Positions 3,659 through 36,863 of a DNA stretch of 55,326 nt are shown here, piece by piece. Each line of letters begins with the position of its first letter. Positions within the stretch are counted from its first letter, which is position 1. Origin of the DNA: an uncultured Methylococcaceae bacterium (lineage in GTDB: Bacteria; Pseudomonadota; Gammaproteobacteria; Methylococcales; Methylococcaceae); contig CAIODU010000113.1 in the NCBI GenBank assembly GCA_903857165.1, positions 1 to 55,326 of the forward strand, read 5' to 3'. The notes under the pieces were generated by a model. The model worked only from the letters and a program-made list of their open reading frames with translations, was not told the origin of the DNA and did not search any database. Position numbers and translations under genes: made by a program.

Positions 3659-4555
3659 TCAACCGATAATATCGGTCAGTGCGCGGCCAAGGTCAGGATA
3701 GCGAAACTCGAATCCAGCTTCCTGCAACCGTTTGGGGATCGCCCTTTGACCTTCCAGCAGCAATTGCCCCATCTCGCCCATCGCCGCCTTCAGCAGGAAT
3801 GCAGGGACGAAAAAGAATGCCGGTCTGTTGAGTGCCTTGGCCAAACCGGCGGTGAACTCACGATTGGTGACGGGGTTGGGTGAAACGCCGTTGAACACAC
3901 CGCTTAATTCCGGGTTTTCCAGCAGCAATTCAATCATGGCGATCAAATCAGCGCAATGAATCCACGGCATCCATTGTCGCCCGTCCCCTATCCTCGCGCC
4001 CAACCCGAAACGGAACGAAGGCAGCATACTCTTCAACATACCGCCATGAGACATCAGTACAAGGCCAAACCGGACAATGCAAAGCCTCACGCCATATTCC
4101 TCCACCCTGCTCGCGGCTTTTTCCCAGCCATCGCAGAGAGTATGCGCAAAGCCGCCCGCACCAGGGCTGTCCTCGTCAATGACGTCGTCGCCACCGTTGC
4201 CGTAGAAGCCCACGGCGGAAGTGTTGATCAACACTTGAGGCTTTATTTCCGCCCTACTGATGAAATCCACCAGTTGCCCAGTTAAGGTGACGCGACTGTC
4301 CCAAAGTATTTTCTTTCTGGTTGCGGTCCAGTACGGCCCGATGACAGCCTCTCCCGCTAGGTTGATCACGGCATCGAAGCGTGCCGATGCGGGCAAATCC
4401 GCTAGCGAAGAGAGGGCGGCTATGCCTTCGCCGCAGATTGCCTTGACCTTCTCGGGCCTACGGCTCAATACCGTCAGCCCGTGGCCCTTTTCTTTCAATG
4501 TCCTGCATAACACGCGGCCGATTGAGCCTGTTCCGCCAGTGATTAATATATCCAT
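3659..4555 (-). CDS. TIGR01777-family epimerase/oxidoreductase (YfcH-like)
   Basis: A 298-residue NAD(P)-binding Rossmann protein of the extended SDR superfamily. The N-terminal nucleotide-binding motif is ITGGTGSIGR. Further family landmarks are the SAVGFYG segment (about 113-119), WMPWIHCADLI (about 195-205), and a C-terminal DUF1731-type region (FVPAFLLKAAMGEMGQLLLE) ending near DLGRALTDIIG. Length and all landmarks match the family, close to E. coli YfcH. The substrate is unknown for the whole family. It is upstream of the Tim44-like gene on the same strand. Confidence 0.93.
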   Translation of the reverse strand: MDILITGGTGSIGRVLCRTLKEKGHGLTVLSRRPEKVKAICGEGIAALSSLADLPASARFDAVINLAGEAVIGPYWTATRKKILWDSRVTLTGQLVDFISRAEIKPQVLINTSAVGFYGNGGDDVIDEDSPGAGGFAHTLCDGWEKAASRVEEYGVRLCIVRFGLVLMSHGGMLKSMLPSFRFGLGARIGDGRQWMPWIHCADLIAMIELLLENPELSGVFNGVSPNPVTNREFTAGLAKALNRPAFFFVPAFLLKAAMGEMGQLLLEGQRAIPKRLQEAGFEFRYPDLGRALTDIIG

Positions 4556-6403: not shown

Positions 6404-6488
6404 TCGGTTTGGCCTGGGGCGGGGGTTCTTGAAGGATCGGCCCCAACCTAACGCAGACTAGGATCGCCCAAGGGATATGTGGCGGGAT

Positions 6489-6513
6489 CGGCCCGGTCAT
6501 CAAGACCGGGCCG
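6489..6513 (+). terminator. Hairpin downstream of the secreted unknown
   Basis: A perfect 10-bp stem (cGGCCCGGTC / GACCGGGCCg) with loop ATCAA, 85 bp after the stop codon. No clear T-run follows, so it may be a weak terminator or just a palindromic repeat. The rest of 6404-6663 shows nothing else I can call. Confidence 0.35.
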
Positions 6514-6663
6514 GTCCGGGTATCCGTTTCCGCCGTTTCACCCTTGCGGCGAGTATATTTCTCGAAATGTCAAAATCATCCATGCCCTAAACTGATACCA
6601 TAACCGCTGTTATGCAGCGTTTACCTGTGCGCCACCCACTTAATCATTCCAGGAGAAACCGAT

Positions 6664-8046
6664 TTGAAGCAGGCGTTGGAAATTGATACCCCGATGACAC
6701 GCACTGAATTGCGTGCCAGCCTTTCCCTCGCCGGGATTTACATGCTCCGAATGCTGGGGCTGTTCATGATCCTGCCGGTTTTTTCAATCTATGCCCGCGA
6801 ATTGGAAGGTTCCACCCCTTTCCTGATCGGACTCGCCATCAGTGCCTATGGGCTGACCCAGGCACTGCTCGGCATACCTTACGGGCTTTGGTCCGATCAT
6901 GTGGGCAGAAAGAAGGTCATCGCCTTCGGCCTGCTCGTCTTCGCCCTCGGCAGCGTGGTCGCCGCATTGGCCGACTCCATCTGGGGCGTCATCCTAGGCC
7001 GCTCCATCCAAGGCGCAGGCGCGGTGGCTTCCGTGGTCATGGCCTTGGCCGCCGACCTGACCCGCGAGGAACACCGCACTAAAGCCATGGCCCTGATCGG
7101 CATTAGCATCGGCATCTCCTTCGCCGTCTCCATGGTTGCCGGGCCGATCCTGGAAGGCTTGATTGGCGTGAAAGGCATTTTCTGGATTATTGCCGGTCTC
7201 GCGCTCACTGGCATCGCCGTGCTTTACCTGGTAGTGCCCACGCCTGTCATCAGCCGCTTCCACCGTGATGCCGAGGCGCAACCGGCACAATTTGGCAAAG
7301 TATTGAAAAACCCTGAATTGCTGCGGCTTGATTTCGGCATATTTTCCCTTCATGCGATTTTGACTGCCACTTTTGTGGTCATTCCGCTGGTGCTGCGTGA
7401 CACCGTGCAATTGGCAACCGCCGACCACTGGAAGGTTTACTTGCCGGTGTTCCTTCTATCCCTGTTTGCGATGGTGCCATTTGTGATTTTGGCGGAAAAG
7501 AAACGCAAGATGAAAGCCGTGTTCGTTGCTTTCATCATTGTCATCGCAATCGCCGATGCCGGTCTGTTTGTCAATGCCAACAATGTCTACGCCATTGGTT
7601 TCCTGCTCTTCGTGTTCTTCACTGGCTTCAACCTGCTGGAAGCGACACTGCCTTCGATGATTTCCAAAGTCGCCCCTTCTGAATTGAAAGGCACGGCGAT
7701 GGGTGTCTATTCCGCCGCGCAGTTTCTCGGCGCCTTCGTCGGCGGAGTCAGTGGCGGCATTATCTACGGTGCTTTAGGCAAGCCTGTCGTGTTCGCCTTC
7801 TGCGCCATTATTGCCTCGGTTTGGGCCTTGGTGGCCCTGCGCATGGCCCCGCCACGGCATCTCAGCTCCCTGTTAATCAACTTCGGCAACTTGACCGTAA
7901 ATGAAGCCATTGCAATGTCGGCCAAACTTCGCCTAGTCCCCGGCGTTATCGAAGCGGTGGTATTGGCTGATGACGGGGTGGCTTATTTAAAAGTGGAAAA
8001 GGACAAACTGGATAAGGTGGCGCTGGAGGGGTTGTTGCCGGAGTGA
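6664..8046 (+). CDS. YajR-like MFS transporter with C-terminal YAM domain
   Basis: A 460-residue inner-membrane transporter. The TTG start is chosen because AGGAGAAACC sits seven bases upstream; an internal ATG at 6694 is the alternative. Twelve hydrophobic helices are visible. The MFS signature between helices 2 and 3 is GLWSDHVGRKK, and ADLTREEHRTKAMALIG follows, both close to E. coli YajR. After the last helix (about residue 395) comes a soluble ferredoxin-like tail (INFGNLTVNEAIAMSAKL, GVIEAVVLADDGVAYLKVEK) matching the YAM domain of YajR. The substrate is unknown; drug or metabolite efflux is only inferred from the family. Confidence 0.92.
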   Translation: MKQALEIDTPMTRTELRASLSLAGIYMLRMLGLFMILPVFSIYARELEGSTPFLIGLAISAYGLTQALLGIPYGLWSDHVGRKKVIAFGLLVFALGSVVAALADSIWGVILGRSIQGAGAVASVVMALAADLTREEHRTKAMALIGISIGISFAVSMVAGPILEGLIGVKGIFWIIAGLALTGIAVLYLVVPTPVISRFHRDAEAQPAQFGKVLKNPELLRLDFGIFSLHAILTATFVVIPLVLRDTVQLATADHWKVYLPVFLLSLFAMVPFVILAEKKRKMKAVFVAFIIVIAIADAGLFVNANNVYAIGFLLFVFFTGFNLLEATLPSMISKVAPSELKGTAMGVYSAAQFLGAFVGGVSGGIIYGALGKPVVFAFCAIIASVWALVALRMAPPRHLSSLLINFGNLTVNEAIAMSAKLRLVPGVIEAVVLADDGVAYLKVEKDKLDKVALEGLLPE

Positions 8047-20121: not shown

Positions 20122-22365
20122 TCAAAGGGAAAATGTCCTGGCAAGACGAAAGCCGAAATCGTAGTTGCGGTAGTCAGGCGTGCCCCTGCTGCGGGAAGCC
20201 GAACGCACGGCCTGAGTTTCGCCGTTCCACGAGCCACCGCGCAACACCCGGCTAACATTGGAACCGGCCTCGCTGGCTTGCCGTTCAGCGCCGCCATATT
20301 GCCCGTCATAGACCGAGGCGGTCCACTCCCAGACATTGCCATGCATGTCATGCAAGCCCCAAGCATTGCTCGGGAACTGGCCGACTTGCACCGTTTTTTC
20401 TCGATAAATACTTTTCTTGCCGTTGCCGTAAATGGTGTTTCCAGCGTAATTGGCTAACTCAGTGCTGATGCTTGCGCCAAAATGAAACGGCGTGGTCGTA
20501 CTGGCCCGGCAGGTATATTCCCACTCCGCTTCGGTCGGCAAGCGATACTCTTCCCCGGTCTTTGCCGATAACCAATCGGCGTAGGCGACGGCATCCTGCC
20601 AGGTTACATTGATGACGGGGTGCCGCCCCCGTCCCCAGCCTTGATCCCAGGGTTTGTACCGTCTGCTGGCATGCACAAAGCGGTCGTAGTCCTCAAAGGT
20701 GACGGCGTATTGGCCGATGGCGAAACTGGCAACTTCCACTTCATGTTGCCGTTCGTCGTTTCTTCGTCCGGCTTCATTTTCAGGCGAACCCATCAAGAAG
20801 CGACCACCGGGGATGATACTCATGACCGGACCCAAGCTGCCATCCTGCAAACGGTCGCGGAAATGCCAACCAGCCAAGCGTTCCACACTGACACCACGGA
20901 AATCCAATCGACTTATATCCGCCTTAACATTATACCGACAGTTCAAGAAAGCCAGGATTTGGTCGGTGGCGCGGAGTTTATTGCCTTGTTTCAGTGCCGG
21001 GACGGTATTCATCTGTTTGTCCAAACCCCCTGCAACCAGCGCATGGGCGACCAGAAACTCTTGGATGCTGTAATGGGCGAAGCGGTATTCACGCTGCGAA
21101 TTGCGGTTCAACAAAGACCGCCCACCGAAATCGAAATGCTCGATGTGGGCGATGGCGGGCAATGCCCCGACCAGCGAGCGCAACTGTTCTTGGGTGACGG
21201 TTTTTTCTTGCAGCCCCAAGGTCTGCATGTGCAAGGCCAGCACGGTGCATGCCGCCCACAAATCGTCTTTGCTCGGCAAAGGCTGGATGTTTTGTTGCGC
21301 CAGCTTCTTGCCTTCGCGCAGCAGCCAAGCCTCCAACAAGGCTTCATAGACGGTGTATTCGTTCCATTTCCGCTCCGAGGATTTGAGGATGTCGTCGATA
21401 TGGGCCAGCAGTAGCGGACGGAAGCGCAGGGAATGCATGGCAGCGAGAATCTCCTTGGCTTTTAGTCGGTTGGCCTTCACCTTGCCGAGGCTGAGGCTGT
21501 GCCAAGGCAGCGGGAAACGCTTGAGCAGATACTCGTCCACTTGTTTGTCATCGAACAGCGAGAGGAAAATCATCGGGCAGATGAAATTCCCCACTGCCAC
21601 CCGGCCCGGATTGCGGAACGGATCGGACCCGGTTTCCGGGAAGAACTGAGTGCGGCAGGAGATGAGGACATGGCGGAAATTCTCCGAGGCCAGCAGCAAC
21701 TCACTCAGTCGCTGCTCGAAGCGGCCCCAGGCGGTCGGGTCTTCATCCAGCGCGTCGAGCAGCAACACCGTCTTCGCCTTGTTTTGATGTAGCCGGAGCT
21801 TGTCTAGGGTGTCGGTGCCGAGTTTCAGTAACAGGCAGTCGTACTCAGGTTGCCAAAATTGGTACAGATGCACCAGCTTCAACATCATCAAAACAGAAGT
21901 CTTGCCCATGCCCGCATCGGCCAAAATGAACAGTTGATGGCCGCCATTGCGCAGGGTGATCTCCTTCTCCAGAAACTTGCTGATGTAGTCGAAAAACGGT
22001 GTCCTCAGGTCGGACCGGGCACCCTCGTCTTCATGGTAATCGGCGGGGTTGTGGTGCTGACAATTGGGGACGACGTAATATTTCGCCAGCAGTAAAGGAT
22101 CACTAAAGACATTGCCAATCTCGGCGATTTCCAGGGCCCTATCGTTGCGCCTTGCGGTCAGGCGTTTGAGCAAAGAGGGGAGGGAGTCTTTGGAAATGCC
22201 GGGCGGGGTGGGTTTGGGTGGCTTGTCCCTAATATGAAGCGCCCACCATGCCGCAACGATAGTTGAAAATCCACCACCGATTGTTTTAAGCGTTTCTTGA
22301 TTTTCAGATATGCGAAACCAATCCCAACATATATCAATTGATTTATAAACAAAGTCCAAATTCAT
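20122..22365 (-). CDS. NACHT NTPase with C-terminal FGE-sulfatase/C-type lectin domain
   Basis: A 747-residue STAND-type protein. One hydrophobic N-terminal segment (TIGGGFSTIVAAWWALHI) may anchor it in the membrane. The NACHT core has Walker A ILADAGMGKTSVLM (about 147-160) and Walker B TVLLLDALDEDP (about 197-208), then a helical arm region. From about residue 510 comes an FGE-sulfatase domain (MSIIPGGRFLMGSPENEAGR, YRLPTEAEWEY, LHDMHGNVWEW). It ends VLRGGSWNGETQAVRSASR, then GFRLARTF, the architecture of DGR variable proteins. Its C-terminal DNA does not match the template at 34261, so it is not that template's current target. It is last in an operon with two small membrane proteins. It could be a sensor in a conflict system; this is inference. 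Confidence 0.9.
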   Translation of the reverse strand: MNLDFVYKSIDICWDWFRISENQETLKTIGGGFSTIVAAWWALHIRDKPPKPTPPGISKDSLPSLLKRLTARRNDRALEIAEIGNVFSDPLLLAKYYVVPNCQHHNPADYHEDEGARSDLRTPFFDYISKFLEKEITLRNGGHQLFILADAGMGKTSVLMMLKLVHLYQFWQPEYDCLLLKLGTDTLDKLRLHQNKAKTVLLLDALDEDPTAWGRFEQRLSELLLASENFRHVLISCRTQFFPETGSDPFRNPGRVAVGNFICPMIFLSLFDDKQVDEYLLKRFPLPWHSLSLGKVKANRLKAKEILAAMHSLRFRPLLLAHIDDILKSSERKWNEYTVYEALLEAWLLREGKKLAQQNIQPLPSKDDLWAACTVLALHMQTLGLQEKTVTQEQLRSLVGALPAIAHIEHFDFGGRSLLNRNSQREYRFAHYSIQEFLVAHALVAGGLDKQMNTVPALKQGNKLRATDQILAFLNCRYNVKADISRLDFRGVSVERLAGWHFRDRLQDGSLGPVMSIIPGGRFLMGSPENEAGRRNDERQHEVEVASFAIGQYAVTFEDYDRFVHASRRYKPWDQGWGRGRHPVINVTWQDAVAYADWLSAKTGEEYRLPTEAEWEYTCRASTTTPFHFGASISTELANYAGNTIYGNGKKSIYREKTVQVGQFPSNAWGLHDMHGNVWEWTASVYDGQYGGAERQASEAGSNVSRVLRGGSWNGETQAVRSASRSRGTPDYRNYDFGFRLARTFSL

Positions 22366-28800: not shown

Positions 28801-29514
28801 CAGCGAATTCCAGAAGGCTTCCGTGACCTGACCGGACAAAGTCCGGCCCGAGGCATCGGTGATGGTGCCGGAAATCATCACCGGCAGCTTAAAGCCGTGA
28901 TCCTCGAAATATTTCTCCACCGCGAAGACCGCCGCCTTGGCGTTGAGGGTGTCAAAGATGGTCTCGATCATTAGAATATTGGCGCCGCCGTCCACCAGCC
29001 CGCGTGTGGCTTCGTAATAGGCATCCACCAGTTCGGCGAAGCTGACGTTGCGAAAGCCCGGGTCGTTGACATCGGGCGACATTGACGCGGTGCGGTTGGT
29101 CGGGCCGATGACCCCGGCGACAAAGCGCGGCTTGGCGGGATTCTTCGCCTCAAACTCGTCGGCCACTTGCCGGGCCAGCCTTGCGGAGGCGACGTTGATT
29201 TCGTAGGCCAGTTCTTCCATGCCGTAATCGGCCATCGCAATGCGGGTGGCATTGAAGGTATTGGTTTCCAAAATGTCCGAACCCGCTTCCAAATAAGCCC
29301 GCTCGATGGCTTGGATGATGTGCGGCTGGGTCAGCGACAGCAGGTCGTTGTTGCCTTTGACATCGCGCGGCCAGTCGGCGAAGCGTTCCCCCCGATAATC
29401 TTTTTCCTCCAGCTTGTAGGTCTGGATCATCGTACCCATGGCCCCGTCCAGGAACAAGATGCGTTCGGCCAGGCGTTGTTGGAAAAGTTCGCTGCGTTGG
29501 GTTCGGTCGGTCAT
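25819..29514 (-). CDS. metH: Cobalamin-dependent methionine synthase
   Basis: Transfers the methyl group of 5-methyl-THF to homocysteine via cobalamin. I start at the ATG at 29514 ([15 protein letters not shown]), giving 1231 residues, as in E. coli MetH. Order of modules: homocysteine domain with zinc cysteines in FGFNCALGP and [10 protein letters not shown] (residues about 1-330); pterin-binding domain ([25 protein letters not shown], to about 640); cobalamin domain with [18 protein letters not shown], where His is the axial ligand, and [12 protein letters not shown] (to about 890); C-terminal reactivation domain ([18 protein letters not shown]). No B12 or SAM riboswitch was recognised; a MITE lies 43 bp upstream. 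Confidence 0.98.
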
Positions 29515-29556
29515 GTCGGGTGCTCTTTTTCGGGGGGCAAGGTGCATTGTAATTAA

Positions 29557-29706
29557 CTGATGTTACGCATGGACCTATGGCTGGAGCGTCAAAGCTTGCT
29601 TTGACATCAAGGCGAAGCCTTGACGGATACGTTGCCAAAGCAAGCTTTGGCGCTCCAACCCCAACCCGGGCCAAAGCAAGCTTTGGCGCTCCCTGCGTAA
29701 CATCAG
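29557..29706. mobile_element. MITE-like repeat, family A copy 2 (150 bp)
   Basis: Perfect 13-bp ends CTGATGTTACGCA / TGCGTAACATCAG; flanks TAATTAA (29550-29556) and TCATTAA (29707-29713) agree in six of seven positions. The core is nearly identical to copy 1 with six extra bases. It lies immediately upstream of metH and could carry or displace its promoter. Confidence 0.9.
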
Positions 29707-29818
29707 TCATTAAAATGACATTTTAACAGGCTATTGATAAACCCCTGAATTTTTCATGCGGAGGATTCTTGAAAAATGATAGGCAGGTAATGGGGAACAT
29801 AGGGGTGGGGGAAGCCTG

Positions 29819-30187
29819 TCAACTCGGATTACGCTGCGCTTCAACCGGGCTACCCGCTGTGACATTTTTTTTCCAAGCCCCCAATAAACGGCCTATTTCT
29901 TCTAGCAAACGGCTGGCATGTTCATAGCGGCGAATGTCCAATAGTTCCAGATCATGGCTTATTCGCAAGTAAAAGCGCAATTGCTTCAATTTGACATCGG
30001 CTTGGGCGAGTGCGGCGGTTTGACTTGGCTTGTCGGTTGCGTGATAAAGACACTCCATGAAATCCATCGCCGTGGCTTGCAGACGATGCGCCAACACAAA
30101 ACGCTGTTCGCGGGGGAATTTAACGGTTTGCGGGATTAACCAGCGGATGAAGTCGTAGGATTTTGCAAACAGTGGGGATTCTTTAAG
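29819..30187 (-). pseudogene. avd: DGR accessory protein Avd, joined out of frame to the RT remnant
   Basis: From SPLFAKSYDFIRWLIPQTVK through FPREQRFVLAHRLQATAMDF, TAALAQADVKLKQLRFYLRI and YEHASRLLEEIGRLLGAWKK, this is a typical Avd four-helix-bundle protein, the partner of DGR reverse transcriptases that binds RT and RNA. The body of the protein looks complete, but its own start codon is gone. The sequence just upstream is the RT fragment in another frame, so translation would need a chance start (for example in the RT region at 30319). I treat it as non-functional or at best a fusion product. Confidence 0.85.
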
Positions 30188-30489
30188 GTATTCTCGAAAA
30201 TGGTCTCGGTCACGTTGTTCAAGGCGTGATGCACCACCCGGTCGCGGAACGGCGCGGCGGACACCAGGCGCTGCTTCGGGTCGCGGATGGCGAAGGAATG
30301 ATACGCCCCCGGTTGCCATGTTTCCGTGGTCAATTCATCTTGGAGGCGGATTAATTCATCGGCCAGATTCGTCTCGAAGCGGGCGGCGGCAGGGTTGCCG
30401 CGCTTGCCTCTCGCCGCTTTGCGCCATGCGAGGTGAAGATTGCCGAAATCGGTCAATTGCGGGAACAAATTATCGAATGATTTAGCCAT
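30136..30489 (-). pseudogene. DGR reverse transcriptase, N-terminal ~100 residues only
   Basis: From the ATG at 30489: MAKSFDNLFPQLTDFGNLHL, AWRKAARGKRGNPAAARFE, ALQ-type helix LADELIRLQDEL, PGAYHSFAIRDPKQRLVSAA, PFRDRVVHHALNN. This is the conserved beginning of DGR and related RTs, up to about 30190. The catalytic palm with the YxDD box, and everything after ETIFEN, is missing. The reading frame continues a little and stops at 30136, while the DNA continues as Avd in another frame. No Shine-Dalgarno motif precedes the ATG, which directly follows the T-run of a terminator. The enzyme cannot be active. Confidence 0.88.
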
Positions 30490-30514
30490 AAAAAAAAATC
30501 GCGACTGCTTCGCG
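30490..30514 (-). terminator. Intrinsic terminator after the DGR target gene
   Basis: On the minus strand CGCGA-AGCAG-TCGCG is followed by ATTTTTTTTT. It lies about 90 bp after the target gene's stop and directly before the RT remnant's ATG. Confidence 0.6.
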
Positions 30515-30601
30515 GTATTACAAAGAGCAAAAGAAAAAATCAAAAGCAAGAGCAGAAAACAGCAAAGCAGGAACCAGAAATCAGAAGACAGAAATCAGAA
30601 A

Positions 30602-33517
30602 TCACCAGGGAGAACCCAACGCCAAGCGAAAGCCAATATTATCGATTCGATAGTTGGGAAGGAGCCTGTTGCGGAACGCACAACGGAGATTGATAGTAGG
30701 ACTGTTCCAAGAACCGCCGCGAATAACCCGCAGCGCATGGGCTTCCAAATTGTCACGCCGGACTTCTTGGCTGTCCCAGTTTTCATACGTAAACTCCGGC
30801 GTACCTACCTTTTTACCCCATTGGCTGCTGGTCCATTCCCACACATTGCCGCTCATATCGTATAGCCTGATGCCGCTTTCTGCAAAGGATTTCCCCGGTG
30901 GGAACAAGCCGACGCTGGTCGTCCGCCGCAAACCGGTGTCTACATAATTGCCCAGAGTCGGGTCAGGTTTCTCGCCCCACGCATAAGGCAAGCCCGCCAA
31001 ACCACGCGCCGCATATTCCCATTCCGCCTCGGTCGGCACGCGAACTTTGCCGGGATAGGCTTTGGTGGCATTGAGCCAGTTACAAAACGCCAATGCCTCA
31101 TACCAACTGATGCCCACCACCGGGTGGTTGGGGTTGTTCCATTGGCGCTGCTCCCAGAACCACGGCTGGAGGCGGGTCTTCTCCTGCGCCAGCCAGTCTG
31201 CATATCGTTTTTGGTAATCAGGGTTGTCATCCAACAGGGACAAGTCGGCTTTACTGCCCCTTAGCCAGGCCAAGGCCGCAGGGGGCGAAAGCCAATACTG
31301 TTCTTCCGTATAACCGCCTGCCTCGACAAAACAGGCGAATTGGGCATTGGTGACGGGATAGCGGCTTATTTTAAATGCCTCGACCGTGACCGGATGGGCG
31401 GGTTTTTCATCGGCATAGCCTTCATCGCCTTGCGTCCCCATCAGGAAAGTATCTTTGGGGATAGTCTCCCAAACAATATCTGGTAATTCCAGCCCATCAA
31501 ATTTTTTAGGTTTGCCGTCAGCTTCCTTGATGACCGTCACGCCGGGGCGCGGGTCGCCGAGTTCGCCCAATAGCCGGCCGGCCTCGGCGCGCAATGCCAC
31601 CGGCAGGTGGAATTCATCGCCGCGCTCCACCAAGGCCAGCAGGTGTTTTTCCAAACTATCGCGTAAGCGTGTGTAAGAGGGATTGGCATAGTTTCGCAGC
31701 GGTTTTTGCTGCTCCACCGCCGCCTTCGCCGCCAAAAACATCCGCTGCCAGTCGTCTTCTGGGTAAGTGGAATAATCGGGAATGGCATCCAGCACATAAT
31801 TGAGCATCAAACCAACGGCATCCGGCTTGCTGTTGCCTTCGACCTTGGCACTGACCAATAGCAGAAACACCTGTTCCCACCATTCCCGCCCGCCCTCGCT
31901 ACGAATTAGGCGGTCAATTTGTTCCTGCCAATCGCTTTGTTCGGTGATTTCCAGCGCCGCCAGATAGTCTTGGAATGATCTGTGGTAAAACTCAAAACTA
32001 TTGCCCTGCCCAGGCTTCAGTATGCCGCTGCGATAGCGGATGAAATCCAGCAAACTCCTGGCATTGCAATCCGCCGACAGATGGACCGAAAACAAGCCCA
32101 TGATTTGGGTGTCGGATATTTGCAGGGTTTTCTTCGACGAGGCATCCAGCGCCAATTTCTGCAACGCGGTATTGCGGGTGGCGGCGGTTTCAGCCAATGC
32201 CTTGCGCTCATAATCCTCCAGCGGATAAGCCGGGTTTTCCCGGTGAATGCGCTGGGTCCAGCGTTCCAGCATCAATTCCACCGTCTCCTGATAGAGCTTT
32301 GCACGGGAATGCGGCAAGATGCCACGGACAAAGTGCAAAGAGGTGAGCAAGGTTAAAATCAGCGGACTGCGGGCCGGGTCTAGCAAATAATCGCGGTCTT
32401 GCAGTTCCACAAACAACCTATGGGCTTCTTTGGTGGATTCTTCCGGGGTCCGGTTGCGGGTCTCGCGGAGCAGCAGATACCAATGGGTGATGAAGTCTTC
32501 GACTTGCGCATTGCCCATCGGCTGCAATTCGACACAGGCCAAGCCTTGCAACCACTCTTGGTGATGCTCGAATGCGGACGGGCGGCTGGTGATGACTAAA
32601 CGGGCTTGCGGACCCAATTCCCCAAGCAGATTGTCCACGGCCTTCAACATCGCGGAGCGCAAGCCGCCGGTCTCCGGCACTTCGTCCATGCCGTCCATCA
32701 AAATGATACCCTCGCGCAGCAGCGGGGTTTTGAGGATGTTCCATAAAGCCTCACCGTTGTCCTCACCCAGCAACGCAATGATCTCTTGGCGCATGGCCTG
32801 TTGCAGAAAATCATTGGCCTTCTCTTTCCCTTGCAACAACAGGGCGACCGAGCGCAGCCTAACCCGCACCACCGGCAAACGGCGGAACTCGTTTGGTAAA
32901 CGCTCGTCCACTTGGTTTAGATGAGTGCCGGCGATTTGCCAAGCCAGATTGTCCATGAACATGCTCTTGCCCGAACCGGCATCGCCAAGGATGACCAAGC
33001 GGCGATGTTTCTCTTCGGCACAGGCGAGGGTAAGCGGCTTGCGAGCATCCCCGCGCATCCCTAAGCGGTCTGCGCCGGCTTCATCTTGTTGCCTTTGGAC
33101 GGTGACGACATCCATTTCCTGATACACCACCGGCAGGGTGAGGGAATCTCGCATATGGGTGGCAAATTCGGTGAATTTCACATCCACCAAAGACAGGTCA
33201 ATCTGCTGGCAGCTTTTGCGGAGGGCTTGGTAGTATAAAGTGCGTAGCGAGTCGGGGTCTGGGGGTTTCTTCTCGCCTTCGGTTGGGGCTGTCTCCTTGC
33301 GCTTTCCAAGCAGTTTGAGCAAACCCCAACCAACACCGAGGATAGCACCAAGTTTTTCCCCTATGGACAGCCAATCGTTCAGCTTGGCGCGGTCAGCATC
33401 AGGCCAATTCCATAATTGCGTGAGCCATTGAAGAAAATACTGGCGGAAAACCCACAGCAGGATGACGACCAAACACAGTAACAGCGGTGCTTTCAGAAGT
33501 TTAATCAGTTTGTTCAT
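30602..33517 (-). CDS. Membrane-anchored NACHT NTPase with DGR-variable FGE/lectin domain
   Basis: About 971 residues; I prefer the ATG at 33517 (MNKLIKLLKAPLLLCLVVIL), since it begins a signal-anchor helix. A TTG at 33553 is possible. After the membrane helix and linker comes the NACHT NTPase: Walker A LVILGDAGSGKSMFMDNLA (about 173-191), Walker B GIILMDGMDEVPE (about 267-279), sensor LVITSRPSAFEHH. A helical region follows, then the FGE-sulfatase (C-type-lectin-like) domain from about 685 (KDTFLMGTQGDEGYADEKPA, VRVPTEAEWEYAARG, YDMSGNVWEW). Its end, VIRGGSWNSPTINLRCAFRN then [11 protein letters not shown], is the variable repeat and ends at the stop. Likely a ligand-sensing conflict or cell-recognition protein; the ligand is unknown. 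Confidence 0.92.
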   Translation of the reverse strand: MNKLIKLLKAPLLLCLVVILLWVFRQYFLQWLTQLWNWPDADRAKLNDWLSIGEKLGAILGVGWGLLKLLGKRKETAPTEGEKKPPDPDSLRTLYYQALRKSCQQIDLSLVDVKFTEFATHMRDSLTLPVVYQEMDVVTVQRQQDEAGADRLGMRGDARKPLTLACAEEKHRRLVILGDAGSGKSMFMDNLAWQIAGTHLNQVDERLPNEFRRLPVVRVRLRSVALLLQGKEKANDFLQQAMRQEIIALLGEDNGEALWNILKTPLLREGIILMDGMDEVPETGGLRSAMLKAVDNLLGELGPQARLVITSRPSAFEHHQEWLQGLACVELQPMGNAQVEDFITHWYLLLRETRNRTPEESTKEAHRLFVELQDRDYLLDPARSPLILTLLTSLHFVRGILPHSRAKLYQETVELMLERWTQRIHRENPAYPLEDYERKALAETAATRNTALQKLALDASSKKTLQISDTQIMGLFSVHLSADCNARSLLDFIRYRSGILKPGQGNSFEFYHRSFQDYLAALEITEQSDWQEQIDRLIRSEGGREWWEQVFLLLVSAKVEGNSKPDAVGLMLNYVLDAIPDYSTYPEDDWQRMFLAAKAAVEQQKPLRNYANPSYTRLRDSLEKHLLALVERGDEFHLPVALRAEAGRLLGELGDPRPGVTVIKEADGKPKKFDGLELPDIVWETIPKDTFLMGTQGDEGYADEKPAHPVTVEAFKISRYPVTNAQFACFVEAGGYTEEQYWLSPPAALAWLRGSKADLSLLDDNPDYQKRYADWLAQEKTRLQPWFWEQRQWNNPNHPVVGISWYEALAFCNWLNATKAYPGKVRVPTEAEWEYAARGLAGLPYAWGEKPDPTLGNYVDTGLRRTTSVGLFPPGKSFAESGIRLYDMSGNVWEWTSSQWGKKVGTPEFTYENWDSQEVRRDNLEAHALRVIRGGSWNSPTINLRCAFRNRLLPNYRIDNIGFRLALGSPW
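30609..30722 (-). other. DGR variable repeat (VR)
   Basis: 114 bp at the 3' end of the NACHT-FGE gene that align without gaps to 34261-34374. Read on the coding strand, 12 of 18 differences are at template adenines (changed to T, G or C), and six are elsewhere. The last 30-plus bases before the stop (GGCTTTCGCTTGGCGTTGGG...) are identical in both, as an IMH segment should be. Confidence 0.88.
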
Positions 33518-33635
33518 GTGATATAAAGCCATAAAATCAGGAATATCCACCAACCCCTATTTTGCCATAAATAAAGACATCAAACGTAGGGTGGGCAGCA
33601 GTTCTCATTATGAGCTAAAGTGCAGATAAACAACC

Positions 33636-33774
33636 CGTCATTCCGGCATGGATGCCGGAATCCAGTCACAAGGATGTGAAACTAGGGTTCGCCACCAAGC
33701 CTTTTTCAAACATTTTAGCAACCGACAAGTTACCGTCCATGGCACTGGATTCCGGCATCCATGCCGGAATGACG
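33636..33774. repeat. Family B palindromic element, copy 2 (139 bp)
   Basis: Nearly the same as 17013-17152, including CACAAGGATGTGAA and CAAGCCTTTTTCAAAC. It is nested within a second inverted repeat (33597-33615 with 33781-33800, around TTCTCATTATG / CATAATGAGAA). Confidence 0.85.
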
Positions 33775-33952
33775 GCAATGGAGCCATAATGAGAATTGCT
33801 GGCATAAGCGGCTCTTCGTTGCGTCGTTGCGTGAGGCTTTCTTTATGCTTTGATTTTGGGGTGCGAAAATAAATCCACGCCGCCACGATAGTGCTTCAGG
33901 TCAAACTGAGAATTGCTGTAGTGTGGGGTAGGTGCCACTGCGGATGAATTAA

Positions 33953-34079
33953 CTGATGTTACGCAGGGAGCGCCAAAGCTTGCTTTGGCCCGGATTGGGG
34001 TTGGAGCGCCAAAGCTTGCTTTGGCAAGGTATCCGTCAAGGCTTCGCCTTGATGTCAAAGCAAGCTTTGACGCTCCAAT
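33953..34079. mobile_element. MITE-like repeat, family A copy 3, one end lost
   Basis: Begins CTGATGTTACGCA with core order inverted relative to copies 1 and 2 (GGAGCGCCAAAGCTTGCTTT first). At the right side the element stops after GACGCTCCAA and runs into TACAGGGTTCG without the TGCGTAACATCAG end. It lies 3' of the DGR template, where an RT gene would normally be expected. Confidence 0.85.
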
Positions 34080-34260
34080 ACAGGGTTCGTTATTAAAATC
34101 CCCGCACCGTGCCAGGCAGGATGCGGGGCAAGTTTCAGTATTGGGCCGGCTGTTTGCACAGGCGCGACCTGGGCAGGTGCAAGCTGGTTTCGGCCTTGCA
34201 CCGCCGCCGGGCATCAGTCGAGATGAGGCCGGTTTGCCGGATGCAAGCCACAGAAACTAT

Positions 34261-34374
34261 GGAGAACCCAACGCCAAGCGAAAGCCAATATTATTGTTTC
34301 GATTGTCGGGATGGTTCCTGTTGCGGATCGCACAGCGAACATTGTCTGATTGATTGTTCCAAGAACCGCCGCGA
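34261..34374 (-). other. DGR template repeat (TR)
   Basis: On the minus strand this 114-bp segment would read [20 protein letters not shown], then [13 protein letters not shown]. The run of Asn codons (AAC/AAT) is the hallmark of a DGR template, because adenines are the mutable positions. It is not in a target gene; a TAG follows the match at once. By hand count, 12 of its 28 adenines differ in the VR, against six of the other 86 bases. It is separated from the RT/Avd remnants by the whole target gene, an unusual order. Confidence 0.87.
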
Positions 34375-34526
34375 GGGTTGCGCCAACCCGGCTCTAACTC
34401 TGAGGGAAAAAAAGGCATTTTGCAAATAAATGCCCAATATCCTGTTGGTTTGCCGGAAACGCCCGCTGGAAATAGCCTTAAACCCCCTTTGCAAAGTGGG
34501 GCAATACTGTACTGTTGAATTAAAGA

Positions 34527-34656
34527 CTGATGTTACGCATGGACCTAGGCTGGAGCGTCAAAGCTTGCTTTGACTGGCAAGGCTTGCCTTGCCCCTGCCT
34601 GCCTGTCTGCGACAGGCGGTCAAAGCAAGCTTTGACGCTCCCTGCGTAACATCAGT
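34527..34656. mobile_element. MITE-like repeat, family A copy 4 (130 bp)
   Basis: Perfect 13-bp ends and a perfect 7-bp target duplication TTAAAGA (34520-34526 and 34657-34663). The core is shorter and partly replaced by TGCCTTGCCCCTGCCTGCC and GTCTGCGACAGGCGG. This copy gives the clearest proof of the element's limits. Confidence 0.92.
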
Positions 34657-34751
34657 TAAAGAGTAGGTCGGCATCCCCATGCCGACAATGAACTTGTTCT
34701 TCCCTCGGCGGCAAAGGGTTGCCGCCCTACGGATTCTAAGGGTACGGCGCA

Positions 34752-36863
34752 TCAGGCCAGATAAATCCGCTCCAGCGCACCACGCGAAACATTGCCGCGA
34801 TTGTCTTCGGCCTCGATGAAATAGCGCACATCGCCCGCACCGACCGGCAATTCTGCGGTGAAATAATCGGCAGTGACGGTGGCGTCCGTTTTTGAAGGGT
34901 AAGCGCCGTTATTGTGCATTTCCAGCCGATTTTCACCCACGTTGGTGCGCAGGATGAGGCTGGCTGACTTGATGCCGGAAACATCGTAGATGAAGGTATG
35001 CACCGTGCCTTCGCGGGCGGCGTTCGTCAGGCAGCCCTGGCCCCATTTGTGGCCGCCCGGATTTTCCGGCGTGACCCAAGGCGCAAAAATAGTCGGCCCG
35101 GTGCGGTCACGCCCGGCATCGGCCAGTTCGCGGATGGCCGGTTCCAGTTCGGCGTAGGCTTTGTTGGCGGCATGGGTGACTTGCGCATCCCACAAGGTTT
35201 GCCCGGTCCAGTACCAGTAACAACTGGTTTCGGCGTTCAACAAAAGCCGGACTGCCTCGTTGAGATGGGGATGGCCGGGGTCTGCGTCCTCCAAGGTGTG
35301 GACGATATTTTGGAATGCGGTCAACACCGCCCAAGAGTTTAAATCAGGCGAATAGGGCTGGTCATAGCGGCTGAACCATTTCATGAACTGCGGATCGCCA
35401 TTGTCCGCGCCGGCCCAGGAACCCGGCTCGATATGCACGGCATTGGCCGGGTCGGGCGGGAATAGCTGCAAGTAGTCCTCGACGGTGGTCAGTTCAAAGC
35501 GAGGGTCTTCCTTCAGCCATTCCACTAATTTGGCGGTGTTGTTTTTGTAATAGCTGTCCGCCCCGCCACCGTGGTTGTCGCCGTCGGAATGCAGCAGGAA
35601 AAACGGCGGATGCTGGGGGTCGTAACTGCCGGTATTGACCATTTGGTCGTAAACTTGGCCCAACACAGCGGGATATTGCAATGCGCCGAAGCCGCCACGC
35701 GCGTCTTCGTTGCCAATGTAACGTTCGGCCGGCACGGCGATGATTTGCTGGCGTTGCCCGTCCGGGCCTTCGTAATAGACGTATTCAGGCCGCAACTGCG
35801 ACGGCGAAATCTTCGAACCGGCCCAGATGTTGTGCAGTTTTAGCCAGTCGTCCGCCGGTGGGTTGACTTGTTCCGCCGGGTTGGGCGGTAGCATCCCTTC
35901 GCCCATGCCTGCGTAAGGGTAATACTGGCTGGCGCGAAATCGGTGGATGGAATCGAAGATCACTGCGGTGACCCCGGCTTCAATCAAGGCCGGTATCATC
36001 CGCACATGGAAGGCGGTTTCAGGCGGGAACAACACGTTCGATGCCTCCACCCCGAAGGTTTCGCGGATGATGCCGCGATGCCAGGAGATTTGCTTGACGA
36101 TGTCGCGCGCCGGGATCAGGGCCATCAGCGGGTGGAAGAAGCCGAACGAGGAAAACGACAAGCGGGGGTTGCCAAGCGTGGTCTTGGCGTGGGCGATGTC
36201 ACGCAATTCATTGTTCCAGCCGATGAAGCTGTCTGCGCAAAGACCCTCCGTGGCGCAACGGTGGAGTTGCTCGATCAGCGACCCGCTCCAACTGGTGGAC
36301 AATCCCGCATGGGGCAGTCCCCCGCCAATGTATTGCCGGACTGCGGTGGGAATGAAAGTTGTGTAGTTGCCCACCCGCGAGCCGAAGATGGATTCTTTCT
36401 CGCCATCCCAATAGTTGCGGTCAGTGCTGTTGTAATAGGGTTGGTGCATATGCTTGTGGATGCCGAAGTAGATCTTCACATCCCCTTTGCGGTTGTAGTG
36501 CGACTTGACATGGTTGGGGCCTGACAGTTGCACCCGGTGGTAAGCCTTGATCCAGTCGGCACCGCTGGCTTGGCTCAGGTCGGCTTTCCTGCACCCCTCC
36601 ACCTGGATGCTGATGACGCCCGGCCCAAGCAGGCCCGCCGGGATGGAAGCCACATAGGCCCATTCCCCGGCCACCTCGCCTTTCAAGCGGATGGCGTCGC
36701 CGTTGATGAGTTTTTGCATCCCTTGCCCATGGATGATGACCTGTGGAAACGGGATGTCGCCGTCGGCGCAGAAAATCACATGGAATGCCGGGTTCATGCC
36801 CGACGCATCGCACTCAAGTTCGGTGGGGCACTCGATATACAACAAAGTGGCAAACACACTCAT
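34752..36863 (-). CDS. Glycoside hydrolase family 57 protein
   Basis: A 703-residue alpha-glucan-active enzyme. After a roughly 125-residue beta-rich N-terminal region, the GH57 barrel begins with the first conserved motif YFGIHKHMHQPYY. It also shows HAGLSTSWSGSL, SSFGFFHPLMALIP, the Glu-containing FPPETAFHVRMIP (about residues 290-302, likely nucleophile region) and the Asp-containing FFLLHSDGDNHGGGADSYY (about 435-453, likely acid/base). A C-terminal beta-sandwich follows (SASLILRTNVGENRLEMHNN). GH57 members are amylases, branching enzymes or glucanotransferases; which one this is cannot be told. It stands alone, not in a glycogen operon. No signal peptide seen. Confidence 0.9.
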   Translation of the reverse strand: MSVFATLLYIECPTELECDASGMNPAFHVIFCADGDIPFPQVIIHGQGMQKLINGDAIRLKGEVAGEWAYVASIPAGLLGPGVISIQVEGCRKADLSQASGADWIKAYHRVQLSGPNHVKSHYNRKGDVKIYFGIHKHMHQPYYNSTDRNYWDGEKESIFGSRVGNYTTFIPTAVRQYIGGGLPHAGLSTSWSGSLIEQLHRCATEGLCADSFIGWNNELRDIAHAKTTLGNPRLSFSSFGFFHPLMALIPARDIVKQISWHRGIIRETFGVEASNVLFPPETAFHVRMIPALIEAGVTAVIFDSIHRFRASQYYPYAGMGEGMLPPNPAEQVNPPADDWLKLHNIWAGSKISPSQLRPEYVYYEGPDGQRQQIIAVPAERYIGNEDARGGFGALQYPAVLGQVYDQMVNTGSYDPQHPPFFLLHSDGDNHGGGADSYYKNNTAKLVEWLKEDPRFELTTVEDYLQLFPPDPANAVHIEPGSWAGADNGDPQFMKWFSRYDQPYSPDLNSWAVLTAFQNIVHTLEDADPGHPHLNEAVRLLLNAETSCYWYWTGQTLWDAQVTHAANKAYAELEPAIRELADAGRDRTGPTIFAPWVTPENPGGHKWGQGCLTNAAREGTVHTFIYDVSGIKSASLILRTNVGENRLEMHNNGAYPSKTDATVTADYFTAELPVGAGDVRYFIEAEDNRGNVSRGALERIYLA

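Follow-up and report, generated by a model that had tools for sequence, protein, structure and literature searches.

A Methylococcaceae DGR locus that has lost most of its RT by deletion, keeps its template and NACHT-FGE target, and is probably frozen

Degenerate DGR loci with possible use in trans have been described in Thiohalocapsa sp. PB-PSB1 (Dore et al. 2024, PMC10907252). In that account nine loci are classed by RT phylogeny together with the alignment of template repeat (TR) and variable repeat (VR), and one complete locus is reported for each class, so that the trans use described there stays within a class (PMC10907252). For the DGR of the Bordetella phage BPP-1, the hairpin that follows the VR is reported to be required for efficient homing (PMC3240598), and the target is described as having a tail-fibre role (PMC7159879).

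Here we describe a DGR locus of an uncultured Methylococcaceae bacterium. The window, that is, the whole stretch of 55,326 nucleotides that was analysed, is the entire contig C113 of the genome G000 (4.9 Mb, 428 contigs), and the comparison set comprised seven genomes of the genus, G000 included (G000-G006). On the minus strand the order is TR, NACHT-FGE target with the VR at its C-terminus, RT remnant and Avd body (Table 1), and the VR falls at the C-terminus of the FGE domain of the target (PF03781, 189 bits, residues 698-978). On balance, we favour the reading that this is a recently RT-deleted, probably frozen DGR. The non-coding region 3' of the TR is conserved throughout in G003 and G001 and in its first part only in G002, and Rfam gave nothing at gathering scores over 29400-34900. 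A further C-terminal FGE domain occurs in a protein encoded 8 kb away (20122-22365), and a TR for it was not found within the window.

Table 1. Features of the DGR locus and their positions in the window
Feature	Position	Strand	Remark
MITE-like repeat with terminal inverted repeats	29556-29707	.	between Avd and metH
Avd (bAvd, PF22296) body	29864-30184	-	without native GTG start
Deletion junction	30184/30185	-	blastn blocks of both intact relatives end and resume here
RT remnant, first 101 codons	30187-30489	-	similarity to the intact RTs of G003 and G002
VR 3' flank	30490-30608	-	boundary sequence and short hairpin (~30499-30516), then T tract
VR core, 114 bp	30609-30722	-	longer TR-VR alignment spans 30604-30722
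DGR target, 983 aa	30602-33553	-	NACHT NTPase and C-terminal FGE-sulfatase (C-type-lectin-like)
MITE-like repeat, partial copy	33952-34078	.	between TR and target
Non-coding region 3' of TR	34092-34255	-	putative DGR RNA
TR	34256-34374	-	upstream of target, same strand
MITE-like repeat copy	34526-34656	.	upstream of TR

What is left of the RT reads MAKSFDNL...ETIFENT (minus strand, 30489-30187) and is, over these first 101 residues, 88% identical to the RT of G003 (contig C528) and 83% identical to that of G002 (contig C251), in agreement with an earlier note on this DNA, which had put the remnant at about 100 residues. Past 30187 the RT frame runs on through unrelated residues up to a stop at 30136. 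The Avd body follows past 30185/30184 in another frame, as had also been noticed, within an open frame that spans 30334-29819, and it scores 75 bits to PF22296 (cut-off 40). The description of this body as otherwise intact stands for the PF22296 match and fails at both ends: the native start position, GTG in the relatives, is CTT here, the nearest in-frame start upstream is an ATG at 30319 within the RT remnant, and the C-terminus has been swapped for foreign sequence that carries the frame on to 29819.

When the locus was searched by blastn against the genus, the matches broke at 30185/30184 both for G003 (positions 3896 and 4671 on the two sides of the break) and for G002 (448 and 1217), so that 774 bp are missing from the window relative to G003 and 768 bp relative to G002. 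The junction was placed from the BLAST blocks and the raw flanks because a MAFFT alignment of the three loci misplaced the N-terminal part. The missing stretch takes in the YVDD motif and the GTG start of Avd; the RT remnant therefore has no YxDD, the catalytic region being gone as first reported, and the genome-wide RVT_1 search reported no RT elsewhere in the window. The idea of an RT fused to Avd by deletion is right at the level of DNA, whereas a protein fusion is ruled out, since the remnants occupy different frames and the Avd start has been lost. An assembly of 428 contigs, rich in dispersed repeats, might in principle join sequences wrongly at 30185, but the junction sits within a coding region and neither of its edges has a long repeat, both of its sides are orthologous to the relatives' loci with the ancestral order kept, and a different deletion affects the same locus in G001; we regard an assembly error as highly improbable.

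Intact orthologous loci are present in G003, with an RT ORF of 376 aa, and in G002, with one of 381 aa. Both RTs carry YVDD, and in both genomes the GTG start of Avd overlaps the stop codon of the RT. This is the RT-Avd order for which the earlier note had proposed looking in close relatives, and it defines the deletion: the machinery missing here has intact counterparts in two species. The ancestral cassette was complete, running from TR through the NACHT-FGE target with its VR to RT and Avd. About 770 bp were then lost, and with them two thirds of the RT, including its catalytic part, and the start codon of Avd, whereas the TR, the target, the VR and the recognition flank after the VR stayed; that template (34256-34374) and target (VR, 30604-30722) are kept had been recognized from the outset.

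At the orthologous locus of G001 (C157, ~6470-6710), about 47 RT codons are joined to the last part of Avd. This deletion, of ~1,166 bp relative to G003, differs from that of the window; the RT and most of Avd are gone, and TR, target and VR are kept. The RT has been lost at two of the four orthologous loci found, through different deletions, and no such locus was among the matches listed for G004, G005 and G006 when the genus was searched by blastn. G001 has another complete-looking DGR RT, on contig C274. In G002 the VR region of the target orthologue is where the assembly breaks (contigs C251 and C572); VR copies that differ within the population, or that mislead the assembler, would have this effect. 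A broken RT lies near 3233-3631 of contig C317 of G006, with about 130 codons followed by other residues and no YxDD. The TR of that contig (3978-4104) is one site off the TR of contig C160 of the same genome, whose full-length RT has YMDD, and the arrangement resembles a DGR that was duplicated and then lost one of its two enzymes.

On the G000 branch, the unique substitutions in the RT remnant comprise 11 nonsynonymous and 12 synonymous changes, and those in Avd 10 and 20, respectively. The same counts in the intact lineages are 2/12 (G003) and 10/13 (G002) for the RT and 5/16 and 14/15 for Avd. The ratio in the RT remnant is above that of G003 and like that of G002, and these lineage-unique counts give no clear sign of relaxed selection on the RT remnant or Avd. 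Most of the branch therefore seems to have passed with a working gene, and the deletion would be recent, falling late on the G000 branch; the earlier proposal that the system died recently fits these counts. The deletions in G000 and G001 both look recent, which would also suit a polymorphic population, in which siblings keep an intact RT, diversify in cis and share the products by recombination, and in which our contig represents the deletion variant. There is precedent in the reported coexistence of strains with intact and with disrupted RTs for DGR 3 and DGR 7 of Thiohalocapsa (PMC10907252). However, when the genome was searched with the RT remnant, no intact second copy of its class came up, and we consider such a population quite improbable.

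The TR and the local VR form an adenine-biased pair, with 20 mismatches over 30604-30722, of which 14 are at TR adenines; in the 114-bp core there are 18, 12 at adenines and 6 elsewhere. Over the same core the TR has 23 mismatches (18 at adenines, 5 not) to a VR on contig C306, in an nSTAND1-FGE protein. A VR on contig C141, in a DUF4062-NACHT-FGE protein, has 19 mismatches, all of them at the 28 adenines and none at the 86 other sites, a pattern with a chance of 3e-15 if mismatches fell at random. In the relatives, where the counts cover 118-120 bp and include two adenine mismatches that are a fixed end-of-repeat difference in every VR of that alignment, adenines account for 21/21 and 17/17 of the TR-VR mismatches in G003, 23/24 and 21/21 in G001, and 17/17 and 16/17 in G002. 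The sequence after the VR, together with a short hairpin and a T tract, is common to cis and remote VRs in four species. The hairpin was seen in nine of the ten aligned VR flanks, the tenth row having ended before it, and the window has both the recognition flank and the hairpin 3' of its VR.

The local VR and the C306 VR have three non-adenine differences from the present TR in common. At positions 26, 35, 40 and 68 the state of the local VR is also found in at least one relative's TR; its sites 29 and 37 have no matching state in the TRs of three relatives, and the C306 VR has one more unexplained site, 92. An older TR reconstructed in this way would be only partly mirrored in the TRs of the relatives. 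The C141 VR has the state of the present TR everywhere save at TR adenines. The pattern is most simply explained by changes in the TR that came after the last writing of the local and C306 VRs and before that of the C141 VR; replacement of the TR through recombination would be expected to leave the same picture. Since the TR would have changed at about five positions after the last writing of the local VR, and since the C141 VR has no non-adenine mismatches and the local VR has six, the local receptor was presumably already stale when the template, in its changed form, was last used, on the remote target at C141. This genotype is predicted to be unable to write its own VR in cis, and the NACHT-FGE receptor would therefore be frozen. 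The freezing suggested in the earlier note is thus favoured, with the correction that the local VR was apparently out of date before the last use of the template. The writing of C141 also seems to be recent, and the RT deletion could precede or follow it.

The locus would stay frozen unless the intact RT on contig C314 can accept its template. This RT is the sole complete DGR RT found in the G000 genome by the genome-wide search that had been recommended from the start. It is a 391-aa ORF with YVDD, accompanied by Avd, a TR of its own and two VRs that depart from this TR at adenines only (20/20 and 24/24), so that the C314 DGR looks active. The presence of a complete DGR makes action by a trans RT possible and, together with the pristine state of the C141 VR, allows for continued trans use: the RT and Avd of C314 would diversify the targets of the orphan template, and the local RT, being redundant, could be lost without penalty. 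The TR cores of C314 and the window are 81% identical over 83 bp, the RT-less G001 locus keeps near-perfect adenine-only VRs in a genome that has the C274 RT, and trans use has been proposed in Thiohalocapsa (PMC10907252). Set against this are the identities between RT classes, 52% between the C314 RT and the G003 orthologue of the deleted RT, from which it falls in a separate clade, and 44% between the C274 RT and the RT class of the window locus. Furthermore, the region 3' of the window TR does not match the C314 class over any length (comparisons with the other DGR classes gave dispersed repeats or short stretches that probably match by chance, and nothing else), the hairpin after the VR differs between the two classes, and the Thiohalocapsa precedent is described within class (PMC10907252). 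We keep trans diversification as a tentative alternative. The other RT invoked in the earlier note does exist as part of a complete DGR, but its class is a different one and its RNA flanks are unlike those of the window, and cross-class action of the C314 RT on the window template is possible, not favoured. A split system, in which after the loss a C314-class RT and Avd copy the orphan template and rewrite the scattered NACHT/STAND receptors of C141, C306 and C113, we hold to be unlikely; if it were true, the independent RT losses in two species would mean that the systems had been pared down until a single enzyme served several templates.

A scan of named genomes gave five relatives of the C314 RT. 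Among the other RTs of G000, that of contig C114 (263-1519), also of DGR type and broken, is joined after YCDD to a CbbQ_C stretch in a single open frame and is unlikely as a helper, and that of contig C146 (4156-10866), an RT-Cas1 protein beside Cas10 in a CRISPR type III locus, was rejected. Contig C3 (1512-4837) has a NACHT-FGE protein followed by the remnant of a broken DGR-type RT, interrupted by a dispersed repeat; a genome-wide search gave no convincing TR match for this target (best E 0.03 over 21 bases).

With an RT-deleted, frozen locus as the preferred reading, the deletion probably represents decay, either deleterious or neutral, to which the MITE-rich surroundings contributed. Three copies of a MITE-like repeat lie at the locus, as is described for degenerate DGRs of Thiohalocapsa (PMC10907252), and a dispersed repeat at 33595-33801 has dozens of copies in G000 and the genus. 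In G001 the locus is flanked by what we take to be a bacterioferritin-like gene (bfr) on one side and a small ferredoxin-like gene (bfd) on the other, and in G000 these two genes adjoin on contig C121, with one copy of the window's MITE-like repeat between them. The right-hand neighbour of the locus in G003 is the same as in G001, and the matching flanks in G002 are split over two contigs. It is a fair guess from this arrangement that the locus was relocated through recombination between repeats. The genes on either side of it in the window, metH and that at 34752-36863, are found on separate contigs in each of the six other genomes of the genus that were searched, and because these assemblies are fragmented the relocation is something that we infer.

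As far as the published description of Thiohalocapsa goes, that genome and G000 are alike in having several DGR loci, in having some RTs missing or broken near MITE-like repeats, in having NACHT/STAND targets with C-type-lectin ends, and in having remote VRs that match a TR at every non-adenine site (PMC10907252); the last likeness extends to the Thiohalocapsa DGR 1 VR, described as matching the TR of DGR 3, whose RT is interrupted (PMC10907252). The window differs from the cases described there in that its loss is a plain ~770 bp deletion defined by intact orthologues in two species, in that a third species (G001) has a separate deletion at the orthologous locus, and in that the local VR appears to be older than the remote one. 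With the DGR of BPP-1, as reported, it shares the adenine-directed TR/VR pair, RT, Avd and a hairpin just after the VR (PMC3240598). However, BPP-1 has a complete cis system with a phage target (PMC3240598), whereas the window has a deleted RT and a NACHT-FGE protein as target, with the TR upstream of it. In the FGS conflict systems with DGRs, as presented by Kaur et al. (2020, PMC7159879), diversification likewise falls on the C-terminal FGE/FGS domain of a conflict protein of the NTPase type and the TR may likewise sit elsewhere in the genome, but these systems are mainly MoxR-vWA ternary ones and the target of the window is a single NACHT protein. Degenerate DGRs that are candidates for trans use are already on record (PMC10907252), and the window is a further case, useful for its intact orthologues and for the second, different loss. 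It would be a relatively dated example of DGR decay, in which the enzyme is the first part to go, template and receptors persist, and the copy written last lies on a remote gene and not on the local one. Since one genus offers intact orthologues, two different deletions and, in another class, a complete DGR, template use across classes, beyond the within-class use described in Thiohalocapsa, can be tested directly here.
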